64,000 nucleotides of DNA, from contig OX387190.1 of the NCBI GenBank assembly GCA_947561395.2, positions 21,570,858-21,634,857 on the forward strand, in the 5' to 3' direction. The position numbers and the translations under genes were made by a program. A model generated the notes under the pieces. It did not search any database. It was not told the DNA's origin and worked only from the letters and a program-made list of their open reading frames with translations. This document shows positions 6,143 through 62,323 of this stretch, piece by piece (the stretch's first letter is position 1; every line of letters starts with the position of its first letter). Source of the stretch: Buxus sempervirens. Its lineage: Eukaryota > Streptophyta > Magnoliopsida > Buxales > Buxaceae.

Positions 6143-6558
6143 ATAGGCTCCCAAGAAATATTTCTTGGCTCCAATCCTACAGTGAGATACTCATGATTGT
6201 ATGAGGCAATAGAAAGATAGTAAAATTTTAAAATTTATCGTATCTTATGGTTTTCTCCAACATAAATTTAAAATGAAAATTTTCAAAACCTAGCAAATAC
6301 TTCTTCAACCTAACAAACACCTGAAGAATATTATGAATAATATATATATACACACACGCATGTATTTATGTATGTATATGTATCAATGTAGTATAATTAT
6401 GAACGACTTTAATTATTTAAACACTTTTATTGACATATATCTTGATTGACTTGTGTAGACACCCCAAATTGCACTACAAAATAAGAAAATAATTGAAAAT
6501 TTTAATTGGAATTTAAAACAGGTCAAAATTGCATAAAATTTCATCAATCATGCATTAC

Positions 6559-6659
6559 CCGTATTTTACTTACGGGCTGATCTCACCCGTAATTCCTATA
6601 TGGGCATGCTGCGCCCGTATTAAGAATGCGGACACCACTTGCCCGCAATATATTTACGG
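6559..6659. promoter_or_regulatory. Dyad array: CCG/CGG half-sites every 14 bp (LTR A)
   Basis: CCG occurs at 6559, 6587, 6615 and 6643. CGG (TGG in one case) occurs at 6573, 6601, 6629 and 6657. The eight half-sites therefore alternate orientation exactly every 14 bp. Flanking bases extend the symmetry to CCCGTA...TACGGG in the first unit. The array lies about 200 bp upstream of the TATA box in U3, where enhancers usually sit. Its function is unknown. Confidence 0.7.
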
Positions 6660-6861
6660 GCGCAGGAGATTTATGCGAATTTGATCCTTGCTCGATTTTT
6701 GAGCCTTATCTTCAGTACAATATTTCTTTAGATGAGCGAATTATCTCTTTTATTCGTTCGAATTATCCTTGTTGGCCATGGATGGGCATTATCCCTATTT
6801 TTCAATCCAATCTGGTGGATCATGGTATATCCCTCTGGACCAGCCTTAGCCCTGGGTTTGC

Positions 6862-6871
6862 CTATAAATAG
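6862..6871 (+). promoter_or_regulatory. TATA box of LTR A
   Basis: CTATAAATAG preceded by TGC and followed by AGG. The same context occurs in LTRs B, C, D and E, which marks the U3/R promoter of the family. Confidence 0.75.
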
Positions 6872-8011
6872 AGGTGAGATCCTTAAGCAAAGCGCCATGA
6901 AAATTTGAAGTCCAAGGAGCTCCAAGAGAAGAGAGGAATCCCTGCTGCTTTGCTTGCTCAATCCAAGTAAGTCCCTTTTCCCTTTTATTTTCTGTCTTCA
7001 ATTCTAGAGATAATAGGATCTTCTCCATTGCTGTAGAATAAGGCCATCTTGTACTTGTATTCTCAAACCTGCCTCCAAGTACCTCAAGAATCCTCTCTAG
7101 TCGTAAAACGTGAAGAGAGAGCTAGGGGAAAGGGGAACAGGTGGATCCCTAGAATAGAACCCCATATCTGGTTTTCTCCTTTTTTCTAGAATAAGGCCTT
7201 TGAGTGTGATTGTATACCCAAACCTATCTCTAAGTACCTCAAAAATCTTCTCTAGCCGTAAAACGTGAAGAGAGAGCTAGGGGAAAAGAGAACAGGTGGA
7301 TCCATAGGGTAGACCTCCATGTGCTCTAATTTGTGAGATATGGCTGCTTTGAATAACCTGATCATGTTTTAATGGTTTTTATTTTGAATCTGAATGAATC
7401 ATATGAATCCATGATGTTTATAACATGAGATCCCCACTTTTTTCTAGAATTTGGATTTTCACCACTTTTGCACCTACAGCTCTGTTTTCGTGATTTTTGT
7501 GATATTAGGCTAAGATCCTTGATCTATATGATAGATCTGGATTCAGAGGCCTGAAAATAACTTCTAGGGTTTCATGATGTTGTTTTTGAATCCTTTTTCA
7601 CTTTTGAGAGAAGACCCTACGGTCTAAGTTCTCCCCTTTTGATGTTCTTCATCAACGTGGGTATTTTTAGTTTTGATTTCTTGATTTAATGTGAAATTTG
7701 GGCTATATCTATGTCCTGGAATGTTCAAGTTCAATTCTGCAATATTTTATAAAAATCATATTTTTCTAGATTTCCAGAATTTAACTTGAAGCCAGATTTT
7801 TTAAGTTTTCATTTTAGATTGGTTTTATTTGATTTTATCTCAATTTTATTTTAATCATGAAACCCTAGGAATGGTATGATCATATTTGAAAATTCTAAAT
7901 CAATCAGGCTATTCATATGAAAAAAACCATACACTTTTGTCTTTTTGTGATTTTTGTAGCAAGCCTTTTTTATTTTTAACATGAACAATGCCTGGCAACC
8001 ACCTTGTGTAG

Positions 8012-8046
8012 ATGAATAGGGGTGCCTAACACCTTCCCCTATTCAT
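8012..8046 (+). other. Conserved RNA hairpin in LTR A
   Basis: Perfect 11-bp arms ATGAATAGGGG / CCCCTATTCAT enclose a 13-base loop containing GCCTAACACC. The same hairpin with altered but pairing arms is found in LTRs B (11339), C (17452, minus) and E (62070). Confidence 0.65.
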
Positions 8047-9125
8047 AACCTAATCCCCTTACCCATCTCTGGTTGTTTTTTTAATAGGGTTATTTTTACC
8101 CTAAATTTGCCTTTTTGTGCTTATTTGATATTTTGGTATCCATTCACACCTAAACAGAATGATGGCGACTCTGTGTTTTTTACCAATCCCGTGTGATGAT
8201 CAGGAAGTCATTGAATTGATTTTCCCATGTCTCACAACTTGGAATTATTATCTAGTAACTATTTGTTAATTTATACCGACCCCTAAAATACACAATTATT
8301 TCAAATGCAAGATATGATTTATACTATTATTTAAAGCACAAACTACCTAAAGTGTTTTTTATTTCCACATACAAGAATATCCTCTTCTAAAATCTTTAAT
8401 TTCAAAAATATCCTTTTTTTTATTAGTGATATGAGTCATTTAATATATTATGCACCTTGTAGACTTCTTCTCCAAAACTTATCTAAGTAAAAGAATTTTA
8501 ATAATTGGAATTACTAATAACATCCTACAAAATTAAACTTCTTGTCTAAATAGTATGTATCTAACTCCAAGGGGACGTTTGGTAGAGATTATAGATTGCA
8601 ATAATGTGTTTTCAACCCTAATAACAAGAGGAAGATCTACAATATATAATACGGTTCATACTCCATATTCTAGTGTAGACACCCAAAAATTGCACGATTT
8701 TTGATAAATCTTGAAGGAGAGAAATATTTTATTGAATTTTCAATTCTTAGCATTGGGTTTGAGATCCTTAACCCATTTGAATCCAAAGCCGCAAAGGAAA
8801 AGGCCCGAATTCAATCTTTTATGCAAAGTCAAACTTTTTCGGGTTGAATTTTGTTGACTTTTGACCCCAGAAAATGAAATATTTTTTAAAGCAAGATTTG
8901 AAGATAATTTTTCCCGGTAATTAGGTTTTTAGCAATGTTATTGCATAAATGAATTTTTTGAGATTTTAAATCTTGACAAATACCTTTGTATCAACATGTT
9001 GAATCTTTTTACCGGACCTGAAAAACTGGAATTTAGCCTGGAACTGGAAAGTTGACTTTTTATTCACTTGGAATTTGGGTCTGGAAATATTTTTAATGGA
9101 CTCAAATGGGGGGGGGGGGTGTTTG

Positions 9126-9207
9126 CTTATTTACATGTAATATCTTAAGTAAATGGAGATTAAAAAATACGAGGACATTTACTTAAACGATATTACATGT
9201 AAATAAG
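9126..9207. repeat. Long inverted repeat in U3 of LTR B
   Basis: Arms of about 30 bp beginning CTTATTTACATGTAATATC face the inverse GATATTACATGTAAATAAG across about 20 bases. The element recurs almost unchanged in LTR E (60019-60100). Confidence 0.8.
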
Positions 9208-9253
9208 CCTGGCCTGTGCAGTTAAGGCTCAAAACCAACCAAAAAGGTGTTAA

Positions 9254-9514
9254 CCGTACTGAATGTGCGGTTTTGGTTAATTTGGTCTGAACCGCCCTGT
9301 ATGTACGGTTGCAACCGCACACACAGCACGGTTGATATTCATGCTTGTTGCGTGAGCTGCCACGTGGCTTCCGGAAGCTTCAGCCGTTGAGACACGTCGA
9401 CAGCAATCATGACGAGCGTAACTGAATTGAACCGCCGTGTATGTGCGGTTTGGTTGAATTTGCATGGAAACCGTATTAGAGTGACGGTTCTGTGAAACCG
9501 CACTGAGTATACGG
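9254..9514. promoter_or_regulatory. Dyad array: CCG-N11-CGG units with irregular period (LTR B)
   Basis: Six dyads have CCG at 9254, 9292, 9315, 9432, 9471 and 9498, each followed by CGG exactly 14 bp later. Arms here read AACCG...CGGTT. Unit spacing is 38, 23, 117, 39 and 27 bp, looser than in A, D and E, but the 11-base interior is always kept. The TATA box lies about 200 bp downstream. Confidence 0.65.
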
Positions 9515-11558
9515 TTTTGGCTGTTTCGGGGATTTGCAAAATGGCTCAATTTCTGAGCCTTATTTACGCATATTACCTCTCTCTCAAGGACTTGAACTCC
9601 CTATTTCACCCTCCGAAACTTGCTGAATTACTCCAATTCAAGCCTTGAAGGAGAATTGGAATAATCTAGAAGGCTTTTTTGGCCTACCTTTGGGACTCTT
9701 TTACCCTTGGCTTTGCCTATAAATAGAGGGGTCCTCCTCTTGCAAATGGCTGATAATTTGAAGCTTGGAAGCTCTGCAAGAAGAGAGGAAACTCTGCTGG
9801 ATTGCTGCCTCAAGTACTCAAGTCATCAAAGGTAAAGCTCCATTTGGTTTTATTGCCTCCTCTTTACATTTCCAACTCCCAACTTCTACCTTTCTGTAGT
9901 GTAAGGCCTTGGGTGTTGTTTTATAGCCCCAAACCTCTTCCAAAGTACCTGGGAATCCTCTCTAGCCGTAAAACGTGAAGAGAGAGCATTGGGAAAAGGA
10001 AGATGGGATGGATCCTTTAGGATTAGAACCTAAATGTGATGAAGAGCATGTTTAATGGTTATTTTGAACCTATGGTTGCTTTTCTAATTTGATCATGTTT
10101 TAGATTTGGAGAAGAGATGTGATCCATGCTATCTATAGCAATGGATTTTAATTTTCTCCTAGATATGTGTTTTTACCAATATCACACACTTTTTCACTGT
10201 TTTGCATCAAATAGGCTAGATCTTGGATTCTCCATGCTCAATATGGAAAATCTGAGATCTCTAGCCTTAGAATGAATTTTTAGGACTTCATGAGTTGTTT
10301 TTCACAATTTCAAGTTATTTTGGTCGAATCTACTTGCACACATGCACTGGTTTCACACTTTTACTCAAGGTTTTTCAAAACAGGGCAGCATCTGTACCAT
10401 GTCTTAGAATGCTCATAACTTCATCTTCCGGATGAATTTTTGAGTGATTCTAAAGACATGTGATAGATGGGAAAGCCTACTTTGTATCTGGAAATTTTCA
10501 TTCATTTTTATGAAGCCAATTTTTGACACCATCTGTTCAAAGTCTGTAAGTCAGTTCAGCCCAGATTGCTGAACTTGCCGCTTTGATGGTGCACCGTTTG
10601 CTCAATTTTAATCCGTTTTGAGTGATTCTAATTTCTGAGTTTTCCTTAAGAAGTCTATTTTCATTTCCAACTGGTTTCAGCAGATTTCGATTTGATTTGA
10701 GGCTTGTGTGCTAGATTGACTCAGAACTGATCTCTGGCACAGTCCAGAGCTAATCTGTGGTCTTCTAGGCCTGTTCAAGAGAGCACACAAGCCACATCTG
10801 GATATAGTTTGGGGTGAGGCTTATTTCTTTGGAAAGATGGCACCACATACTTCCTCCATACCAATTTTCATGGATTTGTATTGAGCCAAACTCCACGAAT
10901 AGGACTTTGAAAATGCCTACTCATCGCTTTTTCTGAGTTATAAACAGCAGATTTCAGATGTGGATTTCTCTCTCATTTTAAGTCGGATTGAGCTGAATTT
11001 TTTACTGCATACTCTACTATATACCAGTTTTCAAATGGCTTTGGTTTCATTGGATTTGGATTTAAATTGAGTGAGTTATGGTTAATCGAAGCTTTCAAGT
11101 TCTCATAATCTGATTTTTCCAGATTTGCCTTGAATTGATTTTGCTTCAATTTTTACCTTGATTTTTATTCACTCATGAAGTTCTAAGAGGTGATATATCC
11201 ATGGAGAGAGTTCATATTTATTGGACTACTCATGTGGAATAATTACTTACATTTTGCTTATTTTTAAGCATCCTTTGTTTTTTTTTATTAGTAAACAATC
11301 TTTAGCATAAGCAAGCATGTGGCAACCGTCTTAGACGGATGAGTGGGGGTGCCTAACACCTTCCCCTGCTCATAAATAATTCCCCTTACCTGATCTCTGG
11401 ATTTTTCCTGGTATAGAGCTACTTTGGCTCTATTTGGCATAAATGATCCCTTTGGTGTCCATTCACACCTTAAGATGGATGGTGGCGACTCTTTACATTT
11501 ATCGATCCCCGCGTGACGATATCGGAGGTCATCCTAGGTGACATTTCCATGTCTCACA

Positions 11559-17260: not shown

Positions 17261-17451
17261 ACTATTGTGAGACGTGGAAAATCACCTATGTGACTTCCTA
17301 ATCATCACATGGGTTAATAAGTTGAAGGAGTCGTCACCATTCAATTTAAGGTGTGAATGGACAACAAAATGATCATAAAAGATAAGAAATAGAGCCAAAA
17401 AGTAGCTCTACTTTATGGTTAAATCCAGAGATTGGGTAAGGAGATTAGGTT

Positions 17452-17487
17452 ATGAATTAGGGGAAGGTGTTAGGTACCCCTATTCAT
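17452..17487 (-). other. Conserved RNA hairpin in LTR C
   Basis: On the minus strand ATGAATAGGGG pairs with CCCCTAATTCAT (one bulged A) around a 13-base loop containing ACCTAACACC. It matches the hairpins of LTRs A, B and E. Confidence 0.6.
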
Positions 17488-18884
17488 CCACATAAGGTGG
17501 TTGCCAAATGCTATTCATACTTTAAAAAATTGCTTGCAAGTAAAAATAAACCCAAAGTACTAAAAAGACAAAAGTATGTATGGTTCTTCCATATGAGTGG
17601 TCCAATTGATTCTGGACTATCTATATGAATGTACCATTTCTAGGGTTTCATGATCGAATAAGAAATCAAAATGAACTCAAAGAAAATAAGCCTAAAGCTA
17701 AACTTGGAAAACCAACTTTAGGTTAAATCATTAAAGCTTTGTAAACTCAACTGATCAAAAGTCTTCCAATCCAAACTTAAATCGACTAAAATCAAAGCCA
17801 TTTGAAGGTTTATATAAAGTAGAAAACACAGTAGAAATTTCACTCAAATCTAATAAAATCGAAGGAAATACCTTTGCTGAAATCCAACGTTATAAAACTA
17901 CAAAGACAATGAATGGCGACATGATACAAGTTGAAACCACTTGAAATACATTGAAGAACAAACTCATAATCATTTAGGGTACAAATCTGGCTTAGATCTC
18001 TCATTAATTGGAGAGGAAAGCCAAATCTACCCATGTTGACGAAAAACATTAAAATATGAGAGATTAGACCATAAGGTCCACTCTAAAAGATTAAAGCCAT
18101 TCGAAATCAATTCATAAACCTCTGAGAGATTATTCTAAGGCTTTTGATCTCAGATCTACCATATTGAACACAGTAAATCTAAGATCTATGCCTATTTCAA
18201 CCAGAAATCCAGTGATATATGTATAGTTGTGTGAGAAATCAGAATTTTAGGAGGAAAAAGGGGATCTAATGCTATGGACAGCATAGATCCATATGATTCC
18301 TCCAGATTTGAAACAAAATCACAAAAATACAACCACACACAGAATATCAAAAGACATACAAAAGGATCATCACCAAAAAGGGTTCTAACCTAAGGATCAA
18401 TTCCTGTTCTTGTTTCCCCTAGCTCTCTCTTCATGTTTTACGACTAGAGAGGTGCTTAAGGTACTTAGAGAGAGGTTTGGGGCTACAAACACATACAGGT
18501 CTCTATGCTACAGAAAGGTAGAAGAAAAGACTATCCTAAGATTAAAAAAAAGAAAAGAGAAGAGCAGAGGTTTACCTTGGTTGCTTGAGAGAGTAGAGAG
18601 GCAGGGGATCCCTTCTTCTCCAGGAGCTCTTCAAGCTTCAATTTCCAGCCCTTTGCTAGAGGGGAGACCCTCTATTTATAGGTAAGGCCAAGGGTACAAG
18701 AGGTCACAAGGGTAGGCCAAAGTTTCTTTCTAGATTCTTCTAACTCAATTTTAAGGCATGAGTTGGAGTAAATCTATAAGTTTCGGAGGGTAAATAGGGG
18801 AGATCAAGTGTCCTAGAGAGAGGTAGGAATGGTAAATAAGGCTCAGACGCCGAGCCTTTGCGCATTGGCCAAATTTGTGCGTAT

Positions 18885-18987
18885 CCGCATATATCATGCG
18901 ATTTTATCCAAACTACATTATATATGCGGGTACAGTCAAAACCGCATACTCTCTGCCGACAAAGGCAAATCCGCACAATGTATGTAG
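18885..18987. promoter_or_regulatory. Decayed dyad array of LTR C
   Basis: On the 14-bp grid the half-sites read CCG (18885), CGA (18899), CTA (18913), CGG (18927), CCG (18942), CCG (18956), CCG (18971) and TAG (18985). Four of eight keep the expected triplet, two of those with a 1-bp shift. It lies about 200 bp upstream of the TATA box. Confidence 0.45.
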
Positions 18988-19627
18988 GTAGCACCAATTT
19001 TGAGATTCCAACATGTGTCAAAACTTAGTTAAAGTGCTTTAAACATATTTTCATTTATTTTCTCATATTGTAGTGCAATTTGGGGTGTCTACAGCTATCA
19101 TGTCAGTTTTTAGGTGTTCTAAATTTGTATGAAGGTCATATTGCTATTGAAAATATTGTTTCTAAGATTTTATATTGAATTATTTATATTCAAATATACT
19201 TATAAGCTTGATTTTAAGTGTTTTTTTAGGTGTTTTAAGTTTTATCTATCCTTTTTGAACCAATTTTCCTATTATTATTCTTGGAAAAAAAAAGTGAATA
19301 GGAAAATTTCACAGAACTCATTTCATTATTTGTTAACCAAATACTTGTCTAAGTTAGAATTCTTTTTGTTATGTATTAACCAAACGGAATTAGAAGCTTT
19401 CAAAATTAATTCGTAAATTGAGTTTCAGGAACTCATTCTCAAAATGAATTCCTAATTCATAATGAATGCCAAACAAGGCCTTAGGTTTTTGAAAAAGTTG
19501 AGGCAATTTTGATTGTTCAACCCTTTTATTAATAAAATTTTTCAATAGTGTGTAGGGGCTATTTTACAAAGATGCATGTTTTGTCCGACACGATTTCCAA
19601 GGGGCCCTACTCTCACTTATATATAGT

Positions 19628-20725
19628 TGTTGCTCCAAAAATGGGCCGGTGTGGACACGTGTCTGTGTTGATGATGTGTCTCTACGCGGGCGTGCCAGTA
19701 TCGTTTGATACAAATGATTTTGGGTTGAACCCTGACCCCGGGCACCTGTTCCGAATCTGAACCGGAATCGGTCCAGTCGTACTGCAAGTCACCTGTAATA
19801 AAACGCGTCAGGCGATGTTATGAAGACTAGGGGTCCGGTCTTCGTTTGGGTTCTTGTAAGCGTTTGAAAGCGAAAGCAACTAATGGCACACAAATCCTTT
19901 TATTATAAAATCGGCCGAATAGCCGAAAGCGACAACAGATAATCCTCAAAATGGAAACAAAAGTACAAAAGAAAATCGACAGGGCTTGCAGGACCGGCCT
20001 GTCCTGGTCTTATAGCCGTAATCGGGTATAAGCGCAAGAGGAAGGGGGTGGCTGCTAGCAAAGCCAATTCAGGGGGTTCACCTTGGATTGCTGCTTACCC
20101 GAAAATACACGAGTCACCTGGCGTGAACAGAGCGAGTCTCGGGACCGGCTGCTCGGGATTCTGTAAAGACAGAACTGCGAGTCAGGGGCGGCCTCAACTT
20201 ACTCTCCGGTGGCAGGATTCTGGTGTTAATCGGAGTAAAGAGGGGTCGAAGATGTCATTGCGACTGGAAGCAGTTAGAGAAGTCCTAATTTATCCGTCTG
20301 TATTAGAGGGGATAAAGAATCACGGATGATCAAAATAATATAATAACCGGTTGCGGTTGTGTGGATTGTGTCCTTGAGCTCTTCGAATTGGGGCCTTTTA
20401 TAGCCGCTCCTTGACGGTTGCTCAACGTCCTACTCTCGCACGATCTTCATGGCGGTTGGTTATCTTCAGTTCTCTGTTTCAAAGTGATAACCGCCCGGCC
20501 ATGATCTAAAAATAGTTTTATTCTTGAACGGCCGATGGCACGATCTTCTGATATTTATGGTTTTGTTGTATTAGCTCACGTGGCTCGAACCGCATTCTTC
20601 AGTATGCGTGCTGACGTGGCCTGCTCAACCCTTCAAAGTCTACGGGCCTTGATGTCGTGGCCTAATCAAGCCACCTAGGCACCACGTGTCCTTCTCTTAT
20701 TCGTCGGTTATATAGGGTGTAAACA
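19628..20725 (-). repeat. 3' LTR of the Tat element
   Basis: 1098 bp, matched by 32223-33320 with about 12 substitutions seen by eye and no length change. It is preceded on the minus strand by a purine tract (AGTAGGGGGGCAA, 20738-20726), the polypurine tract. Confidence 0.95.
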
Positions 20726-20738
20726 TTGCCCCCCTACT
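20726..20738 (-). other. Polypurine tract of the Tat element
   Basis: Minus-strand AGTAGGGGGGCAA abuts the 3' LTR start TGTTTACACC. This is the position and composition of a plus-strand primer. Confidence 0.75.
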
Positions 20739-20873
20739 TACTTGTGACGCCGCCATCGGCCGGCGTGATGAGTAAGTATTTCGGGTTTTTCAAAATTTGT
20801 CCGTCGTTTGATGTGAAAAGATCGCGCCGTTTCCCTACGATCGTAATGATGAAACTTTTCGGATTTCTTCTTC

Positions 20874-20880
20874 TATAAAG
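20874..20880 (+). promoter_or_regulatory. TATA-like box for the antisense ORF
   Basis: TATAAAG on the plus strand, about 70 bp before the ATG at 20949. It lies between the 3' LTR and the opposite-strand ORF, so that ORF may have its own promoter. Confidence 0.45.
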
Positions 20881-20948
20881 TACCACAGCCGAGATTTTAC
20901 TTTACTCTTTCTTTTTGGCTGTTTGTCTTTTCTTCTTCTTTGTCTTCA

Positions 20949-22469: not shown

Positions 22470-23547
22470 TCTAATCCGCACTGTATGTCGGCGCCTCGAT
22501 TTGACAATGCCATTTATTTGGCGTTGCAGGTACCGAACAGTATATATTTTATTTTATTCCTGATTTTCCTCAGGTTGGTTATTGATTTCGCGGCTTTCCC
22601 ATAGAGTGGGAAAGTACCGTTTCAAAAACTGGCCGTTGATAATTTTCTTTTCTTGGCCATCCAATGACTGTATATGGTATGCCCCCCGGGCAATACCTTG
22701 CTGACTTGTAATGGTCCTTCCCACGTGGGGGACCATTTTCCATATAAAGAATCTTTTTTCCCTATTGGCAGAAGGGTTTTCTACACTAAATCTCCTTGAG
22801 CGAATGATTTGTGTTTTACTCGGCGATTATAGGATCTTGCAATCCTTTGCTTGAGGGCTCTCTGCCGATCCAGGGCTAGCCTCCTCATCTCTCCCAAGTC
22901 TTCTAATTCAACTAACATTGCTTCCGTGTAATCCTTGGGAGTGAAATTATTCTGAATAGCCACTGTTAGCACCTGATTTTTGCACCCCAAAAAATGCAAA
23001 AAAATGAAATTTTAATTAAAAAGTCAAACCCTGAGGGGACCAAAATTTGACTTTTTGATCCAAAGAAAATTGGCCATCAAACTTCCTTTCATTGAAAAGA
23101 GCATTTTGACACGGTTCTAACGCAACTGAGTTTGCCAGAATCGGGGTCCGGATGAGGAAGTTGTGATCTGGTCAAACTTTTGGGGAAGCGAAATTTGACT
23201 TTTCGCTCGACCCCAATTCAGCTGCCAAACTTAATCCCAGTGGATAGTATGTTCCGAACTGATTCCAACGACACCAAATTTGCTGAAATCGGACATCGGA
23301 CGGAAAAGTTATGGGCAGTTGAAATTTCAAAGAAAGTTGCCCATGTGGCAAAACAGCAGCAAAAAGCAGAATAAAGGAGTTAAATAAATAAAATAATCAT
23401 TTAATAGACATATCTTTATTTTTTTAATATTATTTTAATAAGAGAATCTCGTTTTATAATAAAATAATCAAAAAATCGGATAAAAATCTTTAAATAAACC
23501 AAATTGAATAAAGGTTTGAAATCCAAACATTTTAAAAACGTGCTGGA

Positions 23548-23748
23548 CCGTATTTGAAGTACGGGCGAGGCATGCCCGTACTTCAACTACGGGCAAGCTT
23601 CTAGAAGAGGACGCGTGGCGGGACACGCGTCCCGTACGGAAGAATCTGCGATAATTGCAAATATTCGTTTTTCGCCCGTATTTGAATTACGGGCAAGGCA
23701 CGCCCGTACTTGAAGTACGGGCAAGGCATGCCCGTAGTTCAAATACGG
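23548..23748. promoter_or_regulatory. Dyad array D1 (CCG/CGG, 14-bp grid) just upstream of TATA
   Basis: Half-sites CCG 23548, CGG 23562, CCG 23576, CGG 23590. After a gap the grid resumes with CCG 23676, CGG 23690, CCG 23704, CGG 23718, CCG 23732, CGG 23746. Arms extend to GCCCGTA...TACGGGC. The TATA box follows only about 15 bp after the last half-site. Confidence 0.75.
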
Positions 23749-23762
23749 GCACGAAAATTTTG

Positions 23763-23773
23763 CCTATAAATAG
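23763..23773 (+). promoter_or_regulatory. TATA box of LTR D
   Basis: CCTATAAATAG in the same TGCCTATAAATAGAG context as in LTRs A and B, directly after dyad array D1. Confidence 0.75.
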
Positions 23774-24541
23774 AGAGGCCACCCCCCTCATTTGAACAAG
23801 CTGGTCCCTTTGGCCTTCCCCCCTCTCCTTCCTTGCCATTTTTACGCCGAAGCCCTGCCTCCACTCTGTCAGCATCTATCCCAATGACCAAAATGCCCCT
23901 GGAGTGCTGCTCAACCTCCTGTTTCACCCTTTTTACATCAGAAACCCAATGAACCCCTGTTCAAACCAATCCGTGAAATCCAACGGAGGTGCGGAAGCGC
24001 TGCCAAAATCGTCCGGAAGAGCTAACACACATCAAGAATAATCCAAAGGTTGCACTGTAAGCATCTCTACAATTTTAAGTAAATTTCTATTACTTTTGGC
24101 TATCTCCTAAAGTTCTTATCTGTTTTGATTTTATTATGTCATATCTAACATATTTGTTGGCTGCTGTATGTGGTGAGAAATTTGATCTAAAGTGATCATT
24201 CCCATGTCAAAAAAGGAGGAAGTAACCAAAGATTATCAAAGGCGTCATAGGAATGAATATGAATTGATTTTTGGTTACCATTACAAGAGGAGCTATGAAC
24301 CTAAGATTCCCTGTAAATTCCCCCTTTCCCATCCTTGAATTTGGCTGCAAATAATCAAGAGAAAATCTTGATGCTTCAAGAAAAACAAAAGGAAGAAGGA
24401 AAAATGGCCGTTTAGGCCAAATGAAGGAAATGAAGGATTCTGAAGGCCCTGGAATCATCACAGAAGTCATTGGAGTTCCCAGGAAGATGGCCGGACACAT
24501 CCCAGGCGGAATTGGCAGCAAAAATGCAAAATTAGCTGTGT

Positions 24542-24642
24542 CCGTAAACTCAGAGCGGTCCAGGCACAACCGTAGTTAATCTACGGTCTGGCTTGAACCG
24601 TATTAAAATTACGGTTCAGCCCAGACCGTGATTGAAATGCGG
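24542..24642. promoter_or_regulatory. Dyad array D2 (eight perfect half-sites, 14-bp grid)
   Basis: CCG at 24542, 24570, 24598 and 24626; CGG at 24556, 24584, 24612 and 24640. All eight half-sites match and all spacings are exactly 14 bp. Arms read ACCGTA...TACGGT in the second and third units. It lies about 780 bp downstream of the TATA box, in the transcribed part of the LTR. Confidence 0.75.
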
Positions 24643-26859
24643 TCAAACCTGTAAATAACTTAAAAAATTAATTTTTCGAACCCGGTTGGACCCAATCCGA
24701 CCCATTTAAGCTTGACCCGACTAATTGGGCTTCTTTGGTAATTTCAAGCCAATTCTTGAGACTGTGGGCCTAAGTGGGCCCACCAAGGCTTTGTGGGCCC
24801 TCCAATGGGGGCCACATCCCGACTAGCCTAACCAAGGCCCATTTTCACAAATGGGCTAAGGCCACTTAACTAACAGCTCATGGGCCAAATCCCAGCCCAT
24901 TGGGCCCTAAAAGACATCAACCCGCTAAATTGTGTAAATATAATTGAATCTTTAAACCAAATGGCCAAAATCCAATAAGGGTTACCCAATAACCCGGACT
25001 GGGCCTTGGGCTTGACTTAAGCCCAACTCGGAGTCCACTAGGCCTTCCAACGGGGCCCATACCAGACCCACTTCACTAATTAATAAAAGATAAAATCAAA
25101 TAAAAAAGGGGACCCACACCACCAGAGGGTCCCACTCATACCAAATAAGTGTGCATGCTGGTTTAGGAAGGGTGAGACTTAAGTTGACTCAAGACCAAGG
25201 AGACCCACGGGACCTGTCAATTGACGGGGCGGGCTAGGATGTCTTCGGACTTCCCTAGACGTAACCGAGAACTTGCTCAGATCTCTAATAAAGCCGCAGA
25301 CCAGAAAATTAGGCCCGGATAGGTGCCCTTTTGTGTCTGCCTGCACCTCTCAGGCAGTGGCGACTCTAAACCAGTCCCGAGGCGAGCATCACTTCTTCAT
25401 GCACCTCGTCGTGCGGCCCGAAAAATGGGGTGCGCACAGCCACCCTCAACGATTTGACCGTGATCTCGGCCGGAATAACTGCCTCATGACCGAAGGTTAA
25501 GGCAAAAGGGGTAATTCCAATAGACGTCTTGTAAGACATTCGATACGCCCACAATGCTTCAGATAGGAGTTTATGCCAACTTCTTGGCTTATCTTCAATC
25601 ATCTTTCTCAGGATATTTTTCAACACCTTATTTGTTGCTTCAGCTTGTCCATTTGCCTGTGCGTAATAAGGTGTAGATTGAATCATTCTGATGCCTTATG
25701 TTTTGGCAAATTCAGTCACTTCTTGTCCTACAAAAACGGTGCCTGAATCGGTCGTGATGGTTTCGGGGATACCGTATCTGTGAATTATCTGTTCCTTGAT
25801 AAACTCAATCACATCCGATTGTTCCACTTTTTTCAAAGGTTTGGCTTCCACCCATTTGGTGAAGTAATCGGTGGCTACTATGATGAAGTTGTGTAGACCA
25901 GTCGAAGGAGGATACACTTTTCCAATTAAATCCATTGCCCAACCTCTGAAGGGCCATGGCTTGACTATGGTTTGCAATTCGAATGCCGGCACCCTCTGAA
26001 CTGGTCCATGTTTCTGACATTCCTGACATCCTGCAGCGAACATCTGACAATCTTTCAAGATTGACGGCCAGTAATAACCATGCCGACGTAATAACCATCG
26101 CATCTTGACTCCTGCTTGGTGTGCGCCACAAATCCCTTCGTGTACTTCGGCCATTATTAACATGGCTTCTGTTGGGTTAACACACCTAAGTGGGATGTCC
26201 TCAATACTCTTTTTATATAACTCATCGCCCAGAATGAAATAGTTGGCAGCTTTCCTTTTGGTCGATCTGCTAGTCTTTATAGTAGGATCTTTAAGATATC
26301 CCCAGATCTCACCTCTCCAATCCTGTCTTATTGTCTGGTTACAACATGCCAGTGAATCCACCAGAAATGGTCTTTTCTCGGAGTTGGGGAGAGATTGTAT
26401 GGTCACCGTTCTAACTGAATCGCGCAGTCTGAGTCCGGATGCCAACTGGGCCAGTTCATTAGCTTGATAGTTTTCCTTCCTTGGCCGAATTCTATTGAAC
26501 TGCTGGGCCAAGAATCTCGCCCTTCGCAGCAACAGTACTAATGACTCGCTATTGCAGTTATATATGCCCTCCATTTGCTTCAAGACGAGTTGGGAATCCC
26601 CAACAATATTAACCGCTCGAACACCCATTTCCCGTAGAATTTCCAACCCTATAATTGTAGCTTCAAACTCTGCTTGATTATTTGTGGATAATTCTTCAAG
26701 TTGAAATGCATGTTCGTGCTTGTCGCCGGTTGGTGAGGTTATTACTACTCCGATCCCAGAAGCGAACTCTGTTTTTGAGCCATCAAATTCCAGTGTCCAT
26801 GGTTGGAATTCGGCATAGCAAAAACTGGCATGAAATACTGGGATATCCAATTCTTTTTC

Positions 26860-44235: not shown

Positions 44236-44394
44236 AGAAGAGATGAGAGATTGTAGAAGAAGTGTGGTTTGGAGTGGAAGGGTTAGGCATATTTATAGAA
44301 AACCAAAAGTGGTTTTTTACTACCTTTACCCTCAAATATGACTGTTATTTGGCTTTTGGAAGCACTACAAAAAAAAGGTGATATAACAACACTA

Positions 44395-44650
44395 ATATAA
44401 GGGCACTTATAAAAAAGTGCCGTTATAAGTGCCTAAATACGGCATTTCATATGTAAATGCCGTTATAAAACAATTTATTACGGCATTTTCCTAGTGAATG
44501 CTGTTATAAAATAATTTACTACGGCATTCTTTAACTGAATGCCCTGATAAAACAATTTGTTACGACACTTATCTATCAAATGCCGCTATACAATAATTTA
44601 TAAAATATTGTATTACGGCAATTTACTATGAAATGCCGCTATAAATATAA
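44395..44650. repeat. Left subterminal repeat zone of the CACTA element
   Basis: At least eight occurrences of ACGGCA(T/C)TT or its inverse (TGCCGTTATAA) within about 250 bp, mirrored by a similar zone at 48800-49075. Confidence 0.8.
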
Positions 44651-45255: not shown

Positions 45256-45295
45256 ATGTTCGTCAATAAGCTTGTGGAGAAGGCCTCCAAGAAAG
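45256..45295 (+). pseudogene. Captured first exon, tomosyn/Lgl-like
   Basis: ATG at 45256 opens MFVNKLVEKASKK and ends in a consensus donor G|GTAAGTG. From memory, plant tomosyn-like (lethal giant larvae / SRO7-type WD40) proteins begin MFV-K-LVEKASKK, an unusually conserved start. Only 13 codons and the UTR are present; the rest of the gene is absent. The identification rests on a short string, so it could be coincidental. Confidence 0.5.
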
Positions 45296-47396: not shown

Positions 47397-48004
47397 TTGT
47401 TCAAGATTTCCGGCTGAATTTTGTTTGGCTTTTCCCTTGTTCTTTAGTGATGTGCAGGATTTGTTCCTTAGACTTGTGCTCTCTTCTTTTGACAATGAGA
47501 GAGGTGGCTCAGGTCATTGTAGGCTTTGTGCAGGCTGCAAAGAGATTGAAATCTGTCTGCAAGTGAGCTTGAGATGGATCAATCAGGATGCTTTGCATTT
47601 GGTTATTGACGCTAACAGATACTGGTATCCTTATGTCTTCTTCCCCCAAGTTTCTAGTTATGTCTGTAACATATGTATCAATGGGCTGGCTTCCTTTTCC
47701 TGTTTCATTTTGTTAGTAGTCTGCTTTCCTTTTGATGTGGGCAGAGAATGTGGTTGGAGGAACAGCAATCCCCTACCCACATGCATATGTAGAAATTCGT
47801 GACAAATCACTAAAGCTTCATTGTTTCTCATTTGGTATACCTAACAGTCACAGGTTCATCAATTCTATTGCATATTTGTAATTGTGGTTAGAACTTAGAA
47901 GATTGTGATATAAATAAACAAGGTCAATTTTGTGTTTCCTTATACCAAAATTTCTTTTGCCTTCAAAAATTTGATGCTCGTCTTTGAACTCTTCTCATTT
48001 CCAG
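47397..48004 (+). other. CACTA interior: 3' UTR-like DNA and possible exon
   Basis: 47397 onward fits the Ran 3' UTR. Near 47746-47853 an AG is followed by an open stretch (ENVVGGTAIPYPHAYVEIRD) that may be a captured exon of another gene. I do not recognise it. Confidence 0.35.
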
Positions 48005-48512
48005 GATTGTGGATGGAAAGGTTGGGGAGAGAGATCATATGGAGGATATGGAAGCGTAAAGCGTGCCAAAGCAGCTGATTTTCTGGTAGAAAACCTCTAA
48101 TTTGGTATTCTGCCTTCTTAAGTTTTATACATTAATGTCATTATTTTCTGTCCTCCCCTGAGATTTTGTATATTAACATTGCCATCAAAGAAATTACAAG
48201 GAAGCACTTTTTTCCCTCTCCTATTGTCACATGCAAACCCCATACACTAATATATGGCTAATATTTTGTCAGGTTAGGTCATGGGTGGAACAAATGATTC
48301 CTGGAGTTAACAACCGTATAATTTCCTATATTATTGGATTTGACAGCCTGAAGGCTGCAAGCACTGATGAATATAGTTCACAGGAAAGAGATAGTGAAGA
48401 CATAAGGCTACACATGGATGGACTTTTTGAGCTGAAGGAGCATGCAGTTCATTTTGTTAATGAGATTACAGCTCTGTACACAAATGGGCCAGCCGGTGGT
48501 GGAGGGATCTGG
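48005..48512 (+). pseudogene. Captured exons of an AtuA-like (DUF1446) gene
   Basis: Exon 48005-48085 (acceptor CCAG, donor GTAGAA) encodes DCGWKGWGERSYGGYGSVK, then RAKAADFL. Exon 48273-48512 (acceptor GTCAG) encodes VRSWVEQMIPGVNNRIISY, IGFDSLKAAS, DIRLHMDGLFELKEHAVHF and ALYTNGPAGGGGI. By memory this matches the middle of plant proteins of the acyclic-terpene-utilisation AtuA-like family (PF07287), where ...FTALYTNGPAGGGGIS is conserved. The exons are in frame with each other. The remainder of the gene is absent. The family name is less certain than the exon structure. Confidence 0.55.
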
Positions 48513-48699
48513 TTAAATATTTAAAGCATCTTACGCATTTATTTTCATTTTGTTAACACAATATGCTTATTGAATAATTTTCTTTATTTGTTGCTTGGAG
48601 TTGATAAACCTTAGAATTGATAAACTACTAGGCCTATAATGGGCATTATAATATTGTATGTAATATTGTTTTAAATCACGAAGCTAATTTTTTTTTTTT

Positions 48700-48735
48700 G
48701 GGGGGGGGGGGGGGGGGGTGGGGGGTGGGGGGTGG
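48700..48735 (+). repeat. Poly-G / (GGGGGGT)n tract
   Basis: About 19 G followed by TGGGGGG repeats, capable of G-quadruplex formation, preceded by a T-run. It lies just inside the right subterminal zone of the CACTA element. Confidence 0.9.
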
Positions 48736-49135
48736 ATTTTTTCTTTTTTTTTTTGGGGGTGGGGTAAATTAAATTTTTTTAAAATTAATATACTTTTAGC
48801 GGCATTTGGTGGTTGTCGCTAAAGCCTTCAATTGTTGATACACTTTATTACGACACTTTAAAAAAAAATGCCGTAATAGCTTATATTTTTACGGCATTTT
48901 TAAATGCCGTAAAAAGTCACTTTATAGCGGCATATTCTGAAGTGTCGTTATAAGTTGTCGCTATAACATAATGCAACACCACTTGAAACGGCACTTTACT
49001 AAAACGCCGTTATATGTTATAACGGCATTTTTCTATATTATAAGGGCACTTTTGAAGTGCCGTAATAAAAAGACTTTTTTTGTAGTGAAGGGTAGAAATG
49101 ATCATTTACAAGCAATTACAAATATACCTCCTAAT

Positions 49136-54824: not shown

Positions 54825-56356
54825 TCATATGGAGTTATTTGTATGGATAAAACTGAATATATGTTGAACCGAATTCGCAATATCTTCTGCCGTAAACCTT
54901 GATTCGTTTGAAACCTGCACATAACATAAGGATTTGATCATGTACAAAGAAGGATATGATATATACTATATAAGTTTCGATATCAAATTCTTGACTAAAA
55001 AAATCCATATATACCTTGATATTGAAGGAATAGAGAACAGTTTGTTCTATGGTGGTGATGTTGGTATGAAGGATATTGAGTTGCAGGTCTTCAAGGGCTG
55101 CTATTGTCTTAAGAAGCTGACCTGGCCTTCTCCTAGATAGGATCTTGATTAGGGCATCAAACCCTAAGAGCTTAACTTCAACATCTGCTAAACATGACTT
55201 GTTCTCAGCTGTTTCTTCATGAAGTCCAGCCTCATATTCAACCAGCTTGGTAGGATCATTTGTAGGAGGCAAAGGAGGAAAGAATGGTGGTTGAGGCTGT
55301 TGAATTGCAAGATGGGACTCCCCTATCTGTCTTGGAGCATCGGTGTTGCCAAAGAGTCGTCTTTGTTTTTGAGATTCTAAGCATTGAAGTAGTTGTTCCA
55401 ATTCTCTTAAAAACTCAATTGCACCTCCGATAATGGATGCTTGATCTCCCTATGATTGATAGAAACCAATTAAAAAAATTTCATGTCTTTAATCAAAATA
55501 AAGTCAAAAGAACTTATAAAGAGAATAATAATTCCGTATCTTATGGATGCAATTACCCTTTGTACATATGATGCCGGCATGAGAGACCTTAGAACTCGAA
55601 GGTGTTCGTTCATCTGCTTCCGGCGATTTCGTTCGACTGCAATGTGAGTCATCCTTTGGCTCTCCACCTCCTCGCTCGTCTTGGTCATCCTTGGCCTCTT
55701 ACGCCGATTCTTGGCTTCTGCTACCGGACTCTTCTGAAGACTCCCTCCAAGAAAATGAAGCTGCACTGAGGCATCCTCTGACATTTGAGCTTCTTCATCG
55801 TCTCCCTCATCTCTTCCAACCGCTGCTGCCTTGCTTTCAATATTAACTCCTTTAAATTTCTCCCCATTATCCAAAACTGGTGCAGGAACCATGAAATTCT
55901 GATCCTGCAACTTGTCACCCAACACAGGAAACTTAAGAAAGTAGACCGGATCAATCCCGTTTTCTTCTTCTGATATCTTTGCCTGATTTAGGCCTAATTT
56001 AGGTCCAAACTCGGCAAATTGCATCACTTCGGCAAAGCTCAATCGATCAAAAGATGTGGAACTACAGAAATCAGAAGATATTTGGCTTGGTGGAGGATTA
56101 TTCAGCATGTAATCCACCATTCCCGTTGTGTTTTCACCTGAATCATCTCCAATATGTGGCTTCATGAGCTGATGGTGGTGATTTAGAGAGTAATCTAGCC
56201 CTGTAAACCTTGCCGGCAAACCAGCCTGCAATAATTCAGGGTTGGAGTAAAGAAATAACATGCTCATGAAAAGATTGATCAACGAAAGATAAACAAACAG
56301 TAGAAAAGTGAAACACCGAGAGTTCTTGTACCGAGTAGTTCTCTTCTTCTTTCTCC

Positions 56357-58398: not shown

Positions 58399-59572
58399 TA
58401 GGAAAAGAGCTACAAATAGTAGAAGTTATGTTGGAGCAAATGCGTGCAAAATATGCAAGACAACTGGATGAAGAAGGCAGAAAAAAGGGTGATTCAAGCT
58501 AAGGCGAGGATCAAGAGGAAACTCGAAATAAGCAAGCTAGCTAGTGTGAGGCCTGCTCTAGAGATGGATGCCAGGCAGCAGGATTTGTAAAGAAGAATAA
58601 AGCATGCCATAAGGGCCAAAATAAATATGGTTACCCCAAGAAGGCTTCAAGCTGATATGGGGAAATGCATGCAATCCCAAACAATAACAGGATTAATAAT
58701 GTACCATAATAATAATAATAGCAGGGTTAGTAAAATAACGGATAAGACCTTACTATAATTAGTTAGGCCTCGATTGGTATTCATTCTTGTTACGGGGAAT
58801 GAGTCCCATAAACAAATTATAACAAGTTACTTTTCTCCTTTCATGTTTATTATTTATTCCATTTAGTTTTAATGACTTCTTCCTTTGTTAATTTTTTGAT
58901 TGTCATACCTTTTCATTTAATTTTATTATTTTCTTTTTAACATTTTTACTTATTAATTTGAGCTGTTTCTTCAGTCATTGAAACTTAGAAATGTTTTTGG
59001 TAATTTATTTATTTTTCCTATTCCCAGTTAGATCTTCTACTAAATGTGTCTGTAGCTACTTTGGAAAAAAATACTAAAAGAATTTGATATCAATCTCTTT
59101 TCTTGATATTAAAATTATATGCCCCTGTAAAGTAACCAAAAAAAAATAATAATAATAATTGAGACCCTTGCTATATATAAAACATGGTAAATAAAGATGA
59201 ATTATAGGAAAAGGAAAAATAAGAATCAAATAACTTAGTAATACTTAAAGAACTATAAATCTGTAAAACTATGAAGTATAAAAGAATAGCAAGACATATG
59301 CAAGAACAAAAGATTTAGTTGAAATCTTTACCATGTAGAAAACCTGGTAAATAAATATGAATTATTGGAAAAAGGAAAATAAGATCTAATAACTCATTAA
59401 TACTTAAATAACTAAAACATAGTAAAACTCTAATATAAAGGTAAATAAGAGGAAGCTCGCCGGAAATCTCAATTTGAAACATTCTGGCTTTGACCGAAAA
59501 TTCAATTCGGTTATACTAAAAACCCTTTATAACCGAAATATTATTTCGGTCATAAGTAAATATATGTTTATC
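58399..59572. other. AT-rich spacer, no gene seen
   Basis: No domain-bearing ORF. A word group around ACATGGTAAATAAAGATGAATTA is repeated imperfectly at about 59180 and 59340. Confidence 0.4.
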
Positions 59573-60018
59573 TGTAGACACCCCAAAATTGCACGGTTTT
59601 TGATAAATCTTGAAGGAGAGATATTTTATTGGAATTTTCAATTCTTTGCATTGGGTTTGAGGTACTTAACCCATTTGAATCCAAAACGGAAAAGGAAAAG
59701 GCCCGAATTCAATCTTTTGTGCAAAGTCAAACTTTTTCCGGGTGAATTTTGTTGACTTTTGACCCCAGAAAATGAAATATTTTTTAAAGCCAGATTTCAA
59801 GCTAATTTTTCCCGGTAATCAGGTTTTTAGCCATGTTATTGCATAAAAGAATTTTTTGAGATTTTAAATCTTGGCGAATACCTTGGTTTTAACATATTGA
59901 ACCTTTTTTCCAGACCTGAAAAATCGGAATTTTGCCTAGAACTGGAAAGTTGAATTTTTATTCACTTGGAATTTGGGTCTGGAACTATTTTTAATGGATT
60001 CAAATGGGGGGGTGTTTG

Positions 60019-60100
60019 CTTATTTACATGTAATATCTTAAGTAAATGGAGATTAAAAAATACGAGGACATTTACTTAAACGATATTACATGTAAATAAG
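60019..60100. repeat. Long inverted repeat in U3 of LTR E
   Basis: Same unit as 9126-9207: CTTATTTACATGTAATATC ... GATATTACATGTAAATAAG with about 30-bp arms. Confidence 0.8.
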
Positions 60101-60141
60101 TGTTGCCTGTGTTAAAATTTGGAAAAAAGGCTTTTTTCCTT

Positions 60142-60283
60142 GTATCCGGCAACTCAGGCCGGATACAAGTACCTTTCTTTGTATCCGGTGGAACATACCG
60201 GATACAAGCAGTGCTTAGTGTATCCGGTATTGTATACCGGATACCTTAAGGACCTTGTGTATCCGGCCTGATATACCGGATAC
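60142..60283. promoter_or_regulatory. Dyad array E1: four palindromes, exact 39-bp period
   Basis: GTATCCGG-N9-CCGGATAC starts at 60142, 60181, 60220 and 60259. Arms are identical in all four; the nine-base centres (CAACTCAGG, TGGAACATA, TATTGTATA, CCTGATATA) and the 14-base linkers differ. It lies about 155 bp upstream of the TATA box. Confidence 0.8.
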
Positions 60284-60439
60284 GCAAGTTTTGCTCAAAA
60301 TTAGGGTTTTCCGAGAGCTTTTCACTTTTACCATCATGTCCCTCATTAAATGAGGGGAAATCGCGGAAATAACCTTAGGGTTTAGGTTGGAGGGGTTCTA
60401 GACATTAAGTTGTGTCTACCAATGACCTTAGCCCTTGCC

Positions 60440-60447
60440 TATAAATA
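60440..60447 (+). promoter_or_regulatory. TATA box of LTR E
   Basis: TATAAATA in the family context TTGCCTATAAATAGG. Confidence 0.75.
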
Positions 60448-62069
60448 GGAGTCTCCTCCTTGAGCAAATGACACACAACTCTTGTTTTGAATTCTCGCAA
60501 AGAAGAACTCCAAGAGAAGAAGAAAACCGCTGTGGAATCGTCTCCAGCACTCAGGTAAGCCTCAACTTTTCTTTTTATTTTCTGTCTTTACATTCCTAGA
60601 TCTAGATCTCTTCTTCTACCTTTCTGTAGTGTAAAGCCTTGTTTGTATGTGTGGAAATCCTTCCCCGGCTCAAAGTATCTCAAGACTCCCCTAGCCGTAA
60701 AACGTGAAGGCGGATCTAGGAGAAACGAGACTGGGGATTGACCCTAGTGCTAGAACCTATGTAGCATAAGGCCTTTTTGATTGATTGTAAACCGTTCCAT
60801 ATTCAAAGTACCCTTGATTATCTTAAAGAGAACAGAGGGAAACGATAATGGAACGGAACCCTAGGCTATGCTAGAACCTATTTTATTGAATCTATATGCA
60901 TGTGTATGGATCTTGCTTGGTTTTTTTCACTTTTGCACACATATCACTATTTTGGCGGGATAGGCTCATATTTGGGGTTTATTGCATTTATTGTGATAAA
61001 TCTCAAATAAATGGCCTGAATCAATTCTGGAGTGTTTTTAAATGTTTTTCAAAGGTTTTGGATTCATATCACACGAATCTCACACACTTTGTCAATTTTC
61101 GGATTTGATTTTCTTCAAAAATGGCTTAGCTTGACAGCACCTGTACCCTTACTTCGGACGTCCGTAACTTCATCATCCGGATGAATTTTGGGGCGATTCT
61201 AGAACCATGGGAAAGGTGAGGCTATCTAGTTTATGTCCACCAAATTTCATGATTTTCTATCTAGCCGATTTTTGACACCTCTCTGTCGAAGTTAAGTGGA
61301 CAGTTCAGGTCCAAGTACAGAACTTGTCACTTCGACGGACCGCCATGTGTTTGTTTTAAGTCCGATTCGAGTGATTTTTATTTCTGAGTACTCCTTTATG
61401 AGTCTATTTTCAAATCCAGTTGGTTTCATAATTTTTGAACTCCATTTGAATTATTGGTAGCCGATTTACTCAGAACTGCTCATTTGCATTTTTCTGGGTA
61501 AATCTGTGATCTTCGGGGCCTGTTCGGGAGACCACCCAAGGCACACCCGAAGGGATTTTTGTATGAGGCTAGTTTCTATGCAAAGATGGCCATACAAACT
61601 TCAATCACACCAAATTTCGTGGACTTTTATGTAGTGGATTTTCCTAGACAATTTTCCAAAGTTGCCCACTTACCACTTTTAAAAATCCCCAGCAGCAACT
61701 TCAAAGGAGCATAACTCCTAGATTTTTCATCGGAATGAAATGAAATTTTGTACTAGACTCTTGTTTACCCTAATCTTTCAAATGGATTTGGTTTGGGTCA
61801 ATTTAGAATCGGATTTGAATGATTTCAAGGCAAATGGTATAATTTTTACCAAATTTGATTTAACTTGGTTTTGAGCAATTTGTGCTTTGATTTCCATCTT
61901 TTGAGATATTCCAGAAATGATATTGACATAAGAGAGGATCTAAAATCCATTTAGATCTTCATGTGAAAATATCATACATTGTTCCTTTTTCAAAGCTTTT
62001 TCATGATTTTTAGCAAGCTTCTTATTTTCTTTTTAGCATGAACATACACTTGGCAACAACTTCGTGTGG

Positions 62070-62104
62070 ATGAGTGGGGGTGCCTAACACCTTCCCCCGT
62101 TCAT
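62070..62104 (+). other. Conserved RNA hairpin in LTR E
   Basis: ATGAGTGGGGG and CCCCCGTTCAT pair as RNA (two G-U pairs) around a 13-base loop with GCCTAACACC. Confidence 0.6.
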
Positions 62105-62323
62105 AATCTAATCCCCTTACCCATCTCTGGATTTGATTTTCAAGTAGGGTTATTTTTACCCTAGAATTTGTCTTTTGGCTATTTTTGCCTTACTTTTGAA
62201 CTCTTTTGGTGTCCATTCTCACCCCAAAATCTCGAATGGTGGCGACTCTCCCAATTTTTGCGTTGAGCCCGTGTGTTGACGGAGGGACGATCACTCCGGT
62301 GATTTTTTCCCATGTCTCACAAC

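Follow-up and report, generated by a model that had tools for sequence, protein, structure and literature searches.

The window analyzed here, a 64,000-nucleotide stretch of the Buxus sempervirens genome (contig OX387190.1; C12:21570858-21634857), contains five long terminal repeats (LTRs), designated A to E, that appear to belong to a large Tat/Ogre-like family of Ty3/gypsy retrotransposons, and in four of them the U3 region carries a stacked array of the inverted triplet pair CCG-N11-CGG, hereafter called a dyad. LTR D is nested in a full-length gypsy element (19628-33320, target-site duplication ATAGT) that encodes gag, reverse transcriptase, integrase and a second RNase H and has, on its antisense strand, an open reading frame (ORF) with a plant mobile domain (PMD). 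Element E, of which LTR E is the 5' LTR, extends past the end of the window, where its 3' LTR is 99.25% identical to LTR E across the first 2667 bp; a domain search of its internal region returned a gag match only, with no polymerase match and no match to the window's reverse transcriptase. The E gag is 69% identical to that of a gag-pol-bearing relative at C1:7883569, and this identity, together with the likeness of the LTRs, suggests the kinship of A to D and E with the Tat/Ogre group.

A count of CCG-N11-CGG across the window gives 31 sites, whereas 100 dinucleotide shuffles of the same sequence average 1.86 (standard deviation 1.16, maximum 6), and the runner-up among CCG-Nn-CGG spacings with n from 0 to 60 occurs 17 times. 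All but four of the 31 sites lie within LTR A (3), B (7), D (9) or E (4) or in the internal region of E, namely its leader (4); none falls in LTR C, and those elsewhere comprise one pair upstream of E and two isolated sites. The constant geometry described in an earlier note on this DNA is thus borne out. The same note placed a dyad array in the U3 of all five LTRs, which holds for A, B, D and E (3, 6, 5 and 4 exact sites, the seventh match in LTR B being isolated at 11509, close to the 3' end of the LTR) and not for C, which has no exact site. The worn grid that was claimed for C consists of four sites (18885, 18913, 18942 and 18971) in each of which four or five of the six core bases survive. 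At step 29, 0 of 500 shuffles attained the score of this grid, but with the step left free between 20 and 45 bp 8 of 200 did, and hence the grid in LTR C, taken alone, is suggestive only. Nor are the arrays tied to LTRs alone: further dyads stand in the leader of E, in the pair upstream of E (Table 1) and, as described below, upstream of antisense ORFs.

Table 1. Positions of the LTRs, dyad arrays and associated signals in the window, counted from its first nucleotide.
Feature	Position	Strand	Description
LTR A	6454..8236	+	solo LTR; perfect target-site duplication ACTTG
Array A	6559..6659	+	sites 6559, 6587 (worn), 6615, 6643; step 28; words CCGYA
TATAAATAG of LTR A	6863..6871	+	220 bp past the start of the last dyad
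LTR B	8674..11558	+	solo LTR; perfect target-site duplication TCTAG
Array B	9254..9514	+	6 U3 sites; words AACCGYA/AACCGCC; steps 38, 23, 117, 39, 27
TATAAATAG of LTR B	9718..9726	+	220 bp past the start of the last dyad
LTR C	17266..19093	-	worn solo LTR; target-site duplication ACTAT/GCTAT, one base different
Worn array C	18885..18987	-	four degenerate sites, located by eye, at steps of 28, 29 and 29
LTR D	22964..25438	+	solo LTR; perfect target-site duplication GCCAC
Array D, U3	23548..23748	+	5 sites; words CCCGTA; two step-28 runs 100 bp apart; TATAAATAG at 23765
Array D2, within LTR D	24542..24642	+	4 sites; step 28; mostly ACCGTA
Dyad pair 59494/59533	59494..59549	+	words ACCGAAA at step 39; outside LTR E, 23 bp upstream of it
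LTR E	59573..62321	+	5' LTR; partner 3' LTR beyond the window end
Array E, U3	60146..60279	+	4 sites; step 39; words GTATCCGG; TATAAATAG at 60440
Primer-binding-site-like sequence, element E	62324..62341	+	assigned from sequence
Leader array F, inside element E, outside LTRs	63718..63851	+	4 sites at step 39; TATCCGG, except AACCGG in the first unit

The units of these arrays are symmetric beyond their triplets. At the four non-core arm positions beside the triplets, 102 of 132 comparisons in the window are mirror-symmetric (0.77, a count that takes in the worn site in A and the by-eye sites of C). Base composition predicts 0.265, and CCG/CGG pairs of other spacings outside the arrays give 131 of 308 (0.43); the fairer contrast is that between 0.77 and 0.43. 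In the genome sample introduced below, taking one LTR per cluster, 91 of 116 arm positions are mirror-symmetric. Within array E, where every step is exactly 39 bp, identity between units is 36/36 in the core, 41/48 in the arm flanks, 14/42 in the spacer and 40/108 in the linker; core identity is partly circular because sites were picked by their core, which does not apply to flank identity, symmetry or register. Across the units of A, D2, E and F, spacers and linkers are down to 0.14 to 0.37 identity, with arm flanks at 0.58 to 0.85 and the register exact. Identity is higher in the spacers and linkers of array D (0.29 to 0.62) and of the pair upstream of E (0.43, 0.50), which resembles the state expected after recent duplication. 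The first units of arrays E and F have a common 9-bp spacer, CAACTCAGG, and arms that are different yet each internally symmetric. In most arrays, the arms and their mirror symmetry persist while spacers and linkers are randomized.

Genome-wide, the LTR start TGTAGACACC has 8417 + 8416 occurrences and the reversed pattern 554 + 651. The earlier note implied TGTAGACACC to be the start common to the LTRs of the window, which fails for LTR D, beginning with TGTTAGCACC; its expectation that LTRs starting with TGTAGACACC would carry dyad clusters within 300 bp upstream of the TATA motif TATAAATAG was upheld in the part of the genome sampled. The sample consisted of the first 42 listed TGTAGACACC places on C1, less two that lay inside regions already taken (nested LTRs with arrays of their own, in L039 and L049). 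At least one CCG-N11-CGG falls within the first 1.5 kb in 31 of the 40 remaining places, and at least two in 29. The spacing is sharply defined, with 110 pairs at N11 and a single pair at either neighboring spacing, N10 or N12; lesser peaks at N24 (36), N13 (22) and N17 (14) are taken to be half-site combinations inside arrays. Among places with TATAAATAG inside 1.8 kb, 28 of 29 have dyads, the exception being L033, and all 30 copies of TATAAATAG that are preceded by a dyad in those 28 have the nearest dyad end less than 300 bp away, the array mostly ending 16 to 210 bp upstream (sample maximum 270). The 31 dyad-bearing starts read TGTAGACACC-CC-AAATT, TGTAGACACC-TGATTTTTGCACC or near variants and the nine dyad-less places continue otherwise, a difference spotted post hoc, once these places had been counted. 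As the 40 places fall into 13 U3 clusters, seven with dyads and six without, they are far from independent.

An LTR-start pattern had no occurrence in the collections of viral contigs or genome contigs, a primer-binding-site pattern none in the viral contigs, and the window's reverse transcriptase no match to the viral contigs. Three stacked dyads at step 28 do occur in 17 viral contigs, 15 of which have a GC content of at least 0.57 (L009, 0.54; L010, 0.39). These were set aside as chance, flank symmetry being at most 2/4 in 55 of the 57 dyads listed.

The step between neighboring dyads is restricted as well. With the nine steps above 130 bp omitted from a total of 79, 68 of the remaining 70 measure 27, 28, 55, 56, 38, 39 or 78 bp. 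Two main classes emerge, class I with the word CCGYA at step 28 and class II with ATCCGG at step 39, and word class matches step in 25 of the 26 LTR places callable for both, only the B-like L065 disagreeing. Among the 25 is L049, where a class II LTR is nested with a class I LTR and the majority decided the call; five more places, including the mixed L039, had no callable step. The turnover of flanking letters that the earlier note described is therefore real insofar as the words differ, but it takes the form mainly of two classes tied to two steps and not of free drift. The opposite orientation, CGG-N11-CCG, is rarer, with 11 occurrences against 31 in the window and 33 against 110 in the sample, and a step of 28 bp puts alternating half-sites every 14 bp, so that CGG-N11-CCG is expected between neighboring dyads. 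Arrays of step 28 are ambiguous in this respect; it is the 39-bp arrays that identify CCG-N11-CGG as the unit. The arrays, their geometry, their classes and their positions are direct observations in the elements examined.

Arrays of matching type recur inside the elements. The U3 of E and leader array F have the same step, and the same words in three of four leader units. In a second element (L058/L059; 99.6% identity between its LTRs, 79% between its gag and the E gag, and no pol match), the U3 carries class I words at step 28 and the leader (L076) five sites at the same step (1245, 1273, 1301, 1329 and 1357), two exact and three with one mismatch. The relative at C1:7883569 has a class II array in both its LTR (L074) and its leader (L070:1775-1892), bringing the agreement of U3 and leader in class and step to three of three elements. 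Such agreement within an element, alongside the differences between classes, is expected if one trans-acting protein reads both arrays. The leaders of E (L066:141-1486) and of the relative (L070:3349-3939) also contain a tandem repeat with long open frames and a repeated peptide.

This relative encodes gag, reverse transcriptase, RNase H (RH), a second RNase H (aRH) and integrase (L072), with RT_RNaseH at residues 192-296, RVT_3 at 351-469, Integrase_H2C2 at 562-617 and rve at 636-733 of the frame at L072:501-2849. An aRH between RH and integrase is the criterion of the Tat/Ogre group (PMC6317226), and the relative also has the linked trait of a PMD in an extra ORF, as do 57% of Ogre elements (PMC6317226). 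On its antisense strand, DUF7745 was matched at L072:5081-5593 (2.6e-9) and PMD (PF10536) at L073:2243-3259 minus (2.9e-13); further ORF pieces in other frames of the relative gave no domain match. Read along this strand, an array at L073:485-368 is followed after ~16 bp by the TATA-like GCTATAAATGC and ~0.5 kb later by the DUF7745-type ORF, and a second array, at L073:4967-4851, lies ~1.6 kb upstream of the PMD ORF. Compared with the genome, this PMD ORF has 119 matches including itself at 88 to 100% identity (those scored, of 3560 candidates). All seven other PMD copies fetched are preceded, at a distance of 1.3 to 1.7 kb, by two or three exact dyads, with ATCCGG words plus one more diverged and steps of 39 or 76-78 bp, and the class II LTRs L040, L044 and L047 lie ~1.9 to 2.2 kb away from such a PMD copy. 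The position of arrays upstream of the antisense ORFs makes PMD and DUF7745 candidates for the regulator that reads the arrays, each as a putative DNA binder. Two PMD proteins of the host, MAIN and MAIL1, have a part in silencing, and the genes down-regulated in mutants of these have a promoter motif in common (PMC7156037).

Two other PMD loci were considered and rejected. The PMD of the window element 19628-33320 was discarded as the cognate gene on account of the element's own LTRs, which lack dyads, and this ORF had zero matches in the protein collection and the PDB. The stretch C1:48400-57400, in which a PMD match lies beside an LTR, yielded two overlapping dyad matches only and no array. 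Near LTRs of this superfamily, bHLH-type ORFs (HLH, ACT-like) were also seen at two separate loci, window 54838-56282 and L069:4895-5788.

A fixed half-site distance, mirror symmetry, locked steps and TATA proximity are together the trace that a cooperative dimeric regulator would be expected to leave, and we consider it highly probable that the arrays are protein-binding operators. In the model we favor, they would serve as operator (enhancer) arrays through which a dimeric, sequence-specific DNA-binding protein acts on all promoters of an element, across a large Tat/Ogre-like Ty3/gypsy family; its full form, operator arrays read by an element-encoded dimeric protein, has in our judgment an even chance of being correct. 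One dimer would occupy each dyad with two CCG-reading heads 14 bp apart, and the constant step at which dyads are stacked, in most cases 28 or 39 bp, would presumably allow cooperative binding; the 11 bp between these two steps is about one helical turn, and neighboring dimers could therefore share their relative face. Specificity would be determined by the flanking letters, CCGYA at step 28 versus ATCCGG at step 39. The protein would most likely come from the antisense PMD and/or DUF7745 genes of gag-pol-bearing members, genes that, with the same arrays upstream, would be autoregulated, and gag-only elements such as E would retain the sites and respond in trans. We infer binding, cooperativity, activation or anti-silencing, working antisense genes and the identity of the protein.

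Several observations weigh against this model. The LTRs of the PMD-encoding window element 19628-33320 contain zero CCG-N11-CGG, which means that PMD does not require such arrays, and the dyad pair 59494/59533 falls outside every element recognized in the window. In the class I leader L076 only two of five sites are exact and two of four exact half-sites fit CCGYA, and the analysis turned up no pol-bearing element of class I (28 bp), whose regulator would be predicted to differ. The reverse transcriptase of the C1:7883569 relative is split, apparently by a nested insertion, and its antisense ORFs are pieces in several frames, so that intact spliced genes are only putative. The seven PMD copies represent one family, and two of them (L077 and L081) have only two exact dyads upstream. 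Array copying between LTR and leader would give the identical agreement in class and step. The constant geometry with changing words stressed in the earlier note is supported as a sign of a dimeric DNA-binding protein by the genome sample, the flank symmetry and the matched LTR and leader words and steps. Co-evolution of such a protein family with the elements, as the note suggested, is plausible in view of the relative's antisense PMD/DUF7745 ORFs and the arrays upstream of them, even if the array-free LTRs of the window's PMD element tell against it. A bolder extension, which we regard as less likely than not, is a self-contained circuit: antisense PMD/DUF7745 proteins would bind spacing-coded arrays wherever these stand, at LTR, leader and antisense promoters. 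Two specificity groups insulated from each other (CCGYA/28 and ATCCGG/39) would have formed as all arrays of an element changed in matching fashion, and gag-only parasites would keep arrays that match their helper.

The strongest alternative, a genuine if minority possibility, is that the elements captured a host promoter code and that the dyads are read by a host dimeric transcription factor with fixed spacing, for example one of the LOB-domain (LBD) family. A further point against an element-encoded protein fits such a shared host factor: palindromic CGG-CCG boxes also stand upstream of the TATA box in Sireviruses, which belong to another superfamily, Ty1/copia, and those boxes mainly matched sites of stress-related factors in PLACE (PMC2829016). 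LBD proteins, dimers built on a zinc finger and a coiled coil, are described as gauging half-site distance and discriminating palindromes by a molecular-calipers mechanism (PMC10118128, PMC12461856), and a structure of a wheat LOB-family protein is present in the PDB (5ly0). LBD as the definite binder was nonetheless rejected, since its reported word GCGGCG occurs in none of the 110 sampled dyads and in none of eight window arrays, and the LBD core CGGC (or GCCG) in just nine of the 110. A single host factor also poorly explains two word classes tied to two steps, which two host factors could, and poorly explains matched LTR and leader words within an element.

That the dyads are instead methylation sensors, such that the silencing state gates factor binding or the arrays attract or repel silencing, appears improbable. 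A CCG/CGG pair combines CG and CHG methylation sites, and by these plant methylation contexts each dyad would hold both at once. Sirevirus boxes have been reported as CpG islands (PMC2829016), and the element-encoded protein VANC binds clustered motifs with ensuing methylation loss (PMC5735166). Methylation sensing alone, however, accounts for neither the fixed N11 nor the 28/39 steps; it is compatible with the operator model and does not exclude it.

We regard it as very improbable that the arrays are neutral minisatellites generated by slippage, with hairpin-templated quasi-palindrome correction adding symmetry without selection. Array D has clear tandem duplication (Tandem Repeats Finder, 88% matches), tandem repeats are frequent in plant Tat-group elements (PMC6317226, PMC11963269), and the residual spacer and linker identity of array D and of the two dyads before LTR E points the same way. 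The decay of spacers and linkers between better-kept arms in A, D2, E and F argues against it, as does the recurrence of the same N11 with different words. Pure tandem duplication was rejected on the ground that, of seven arrays set side by side, four have arms that outlast the spacers; the contrast is weaker in D and the pair preceding E. Hairpins in the RNA, U3 being transcribed from the 3' LTR, are hardly credible and were rejected: a short stem is possible for every dyad, but the 26 mismatches among 203 arm pairs have no sense-strand G-U bias (7 G-T, 11 A-C, 8 others), and hairpins need neither a fixed CCG-to-CGG distance nor fixed steps.

Some further features of the LTRs in the window deserve description. 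LTRs B (8674-9218) and E (59573-60111) are 92% identical over their first 540 bp, a likeness that stops abruptly ~35 bp before the arrays, whose words differ between the two; this mosaic looks like the replacement of an array module. Array D2 sits downstream of the TATA of LTR D and its words are slightly unlike those of array D. The start of the primer-binding site, TGGCGACTCT, is copied 73-81 bp before the 3' ends of LTRs A, B, D and E (window 8163, 11483, 25358 and 62240), and LTR C seems, by eye, to have a degraded version.

Among known systems, the earlier note drew attention to Gal4-type zinc-cluster factors, a fungal family whose dimers bind CGG-N11-CCG. The resemblance in form proves to be loose: triplet half-sites stand 11 bases apart in both, whereas the constant unit here is CCG-N11-CGG. 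A Gal4-like reading was set aside, the constant unit being of opposite orientation and the Gal4 orientation, which does occur, being both rarer and expected between step-28 neighbors. CACTA transposons, whose subterminal repeats are bound by TnpA, resemble the arrays in having inverted CGG-containing words in arrays. The window itself contains a CACTA-like transposon (44363-49087; CACTACAA...TTGTAGTG, target-site duplication AAG) with subterminal dyads ACGGCATTT/AAATGCCGT; unlike the arrays described here, these belong to a DNA transposon and read CGG-N17-CCG in the clearest unit.

In the literature consulted, the nearest mobile-element protein shown to act on co-evolving motif clusters is VANC of the VANDAL elements (PMC5735166). 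As in that system, short motifs are clustered here in non-coding parts and their words turn over between families; in VANDAL the clusters are often tandem repeats (PMC5735166). VANDAL is, however, another kind of element, its motifs are single words of about nine bases, the term 'palindrom' is absent from the main text of that paper, and VANC binding has been shown for VANDAL (PMC5735166), whereas for the arrays here a binding protein is predicted. Retand elements are, like the present family, gypsy elements of the Tat group; between pol and the 3' LTR they carry antisense ORFs that have been proposed to encode DNA-binding regulators (PMC11963269). Their antisense genes are TRP28, whereas the ORFs here matched PMD and DUF7745, and Transposase_28 (PF04195) was not reported among the ORFs domain-scanned here. 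What the additional genes of Tat/Ogre elements do is, according to PMC6317226 and PMC11963269, unknown or speculative, and spacing-locked arrays upstream of both the extra ORFs and the LTR promoter provide a concrete, testable target. The two word-and-step classes, in turn, amount to a natural experiment on the joint change of a regulator and its sites.

An N11-locked, two-class system at the LTR, leader and antisense ORFs of a Tat/Ogre-like family seems new, and a search of open-licence papers, mostly at the level of their listings, showed no report of arrays of this type in these LTRs besides the Sirevirus paper (PMC2829016). The repeated palindromic motif (RM) boxes of Sireviruses are the closest precedent: palindromic CGG-CCG motifs upstream of a conserved LTR TATA and 5' of the env-like gene, with words that vary between elements (PMC2829016). 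Here, too, clusters of palindromic CGG/CCG boxes precede the LTR TATA and accompany an extra gene. The integrase of the C1:7883569 relative lies after RNase H and aRH, which places it outside the Ty1/copia Sireviruses; integrase after RNase H is the gypsy order. Palindromes of maize Sireviruses are reportedly the subject of a later paper. The Sirevirus CGG-CCG signature is described as holding whatever bases intervene (PMC2829016), in contrast to the 11-base gap and the steps of mostly 28 or 39 bp found here, and the present elements have additional arrays in the leader and at the antisense PMD/DUF7745 ORFs. The parallel between the two systems raises the question of why separate superfamilies of plant elements use CGG/CCG dyads.

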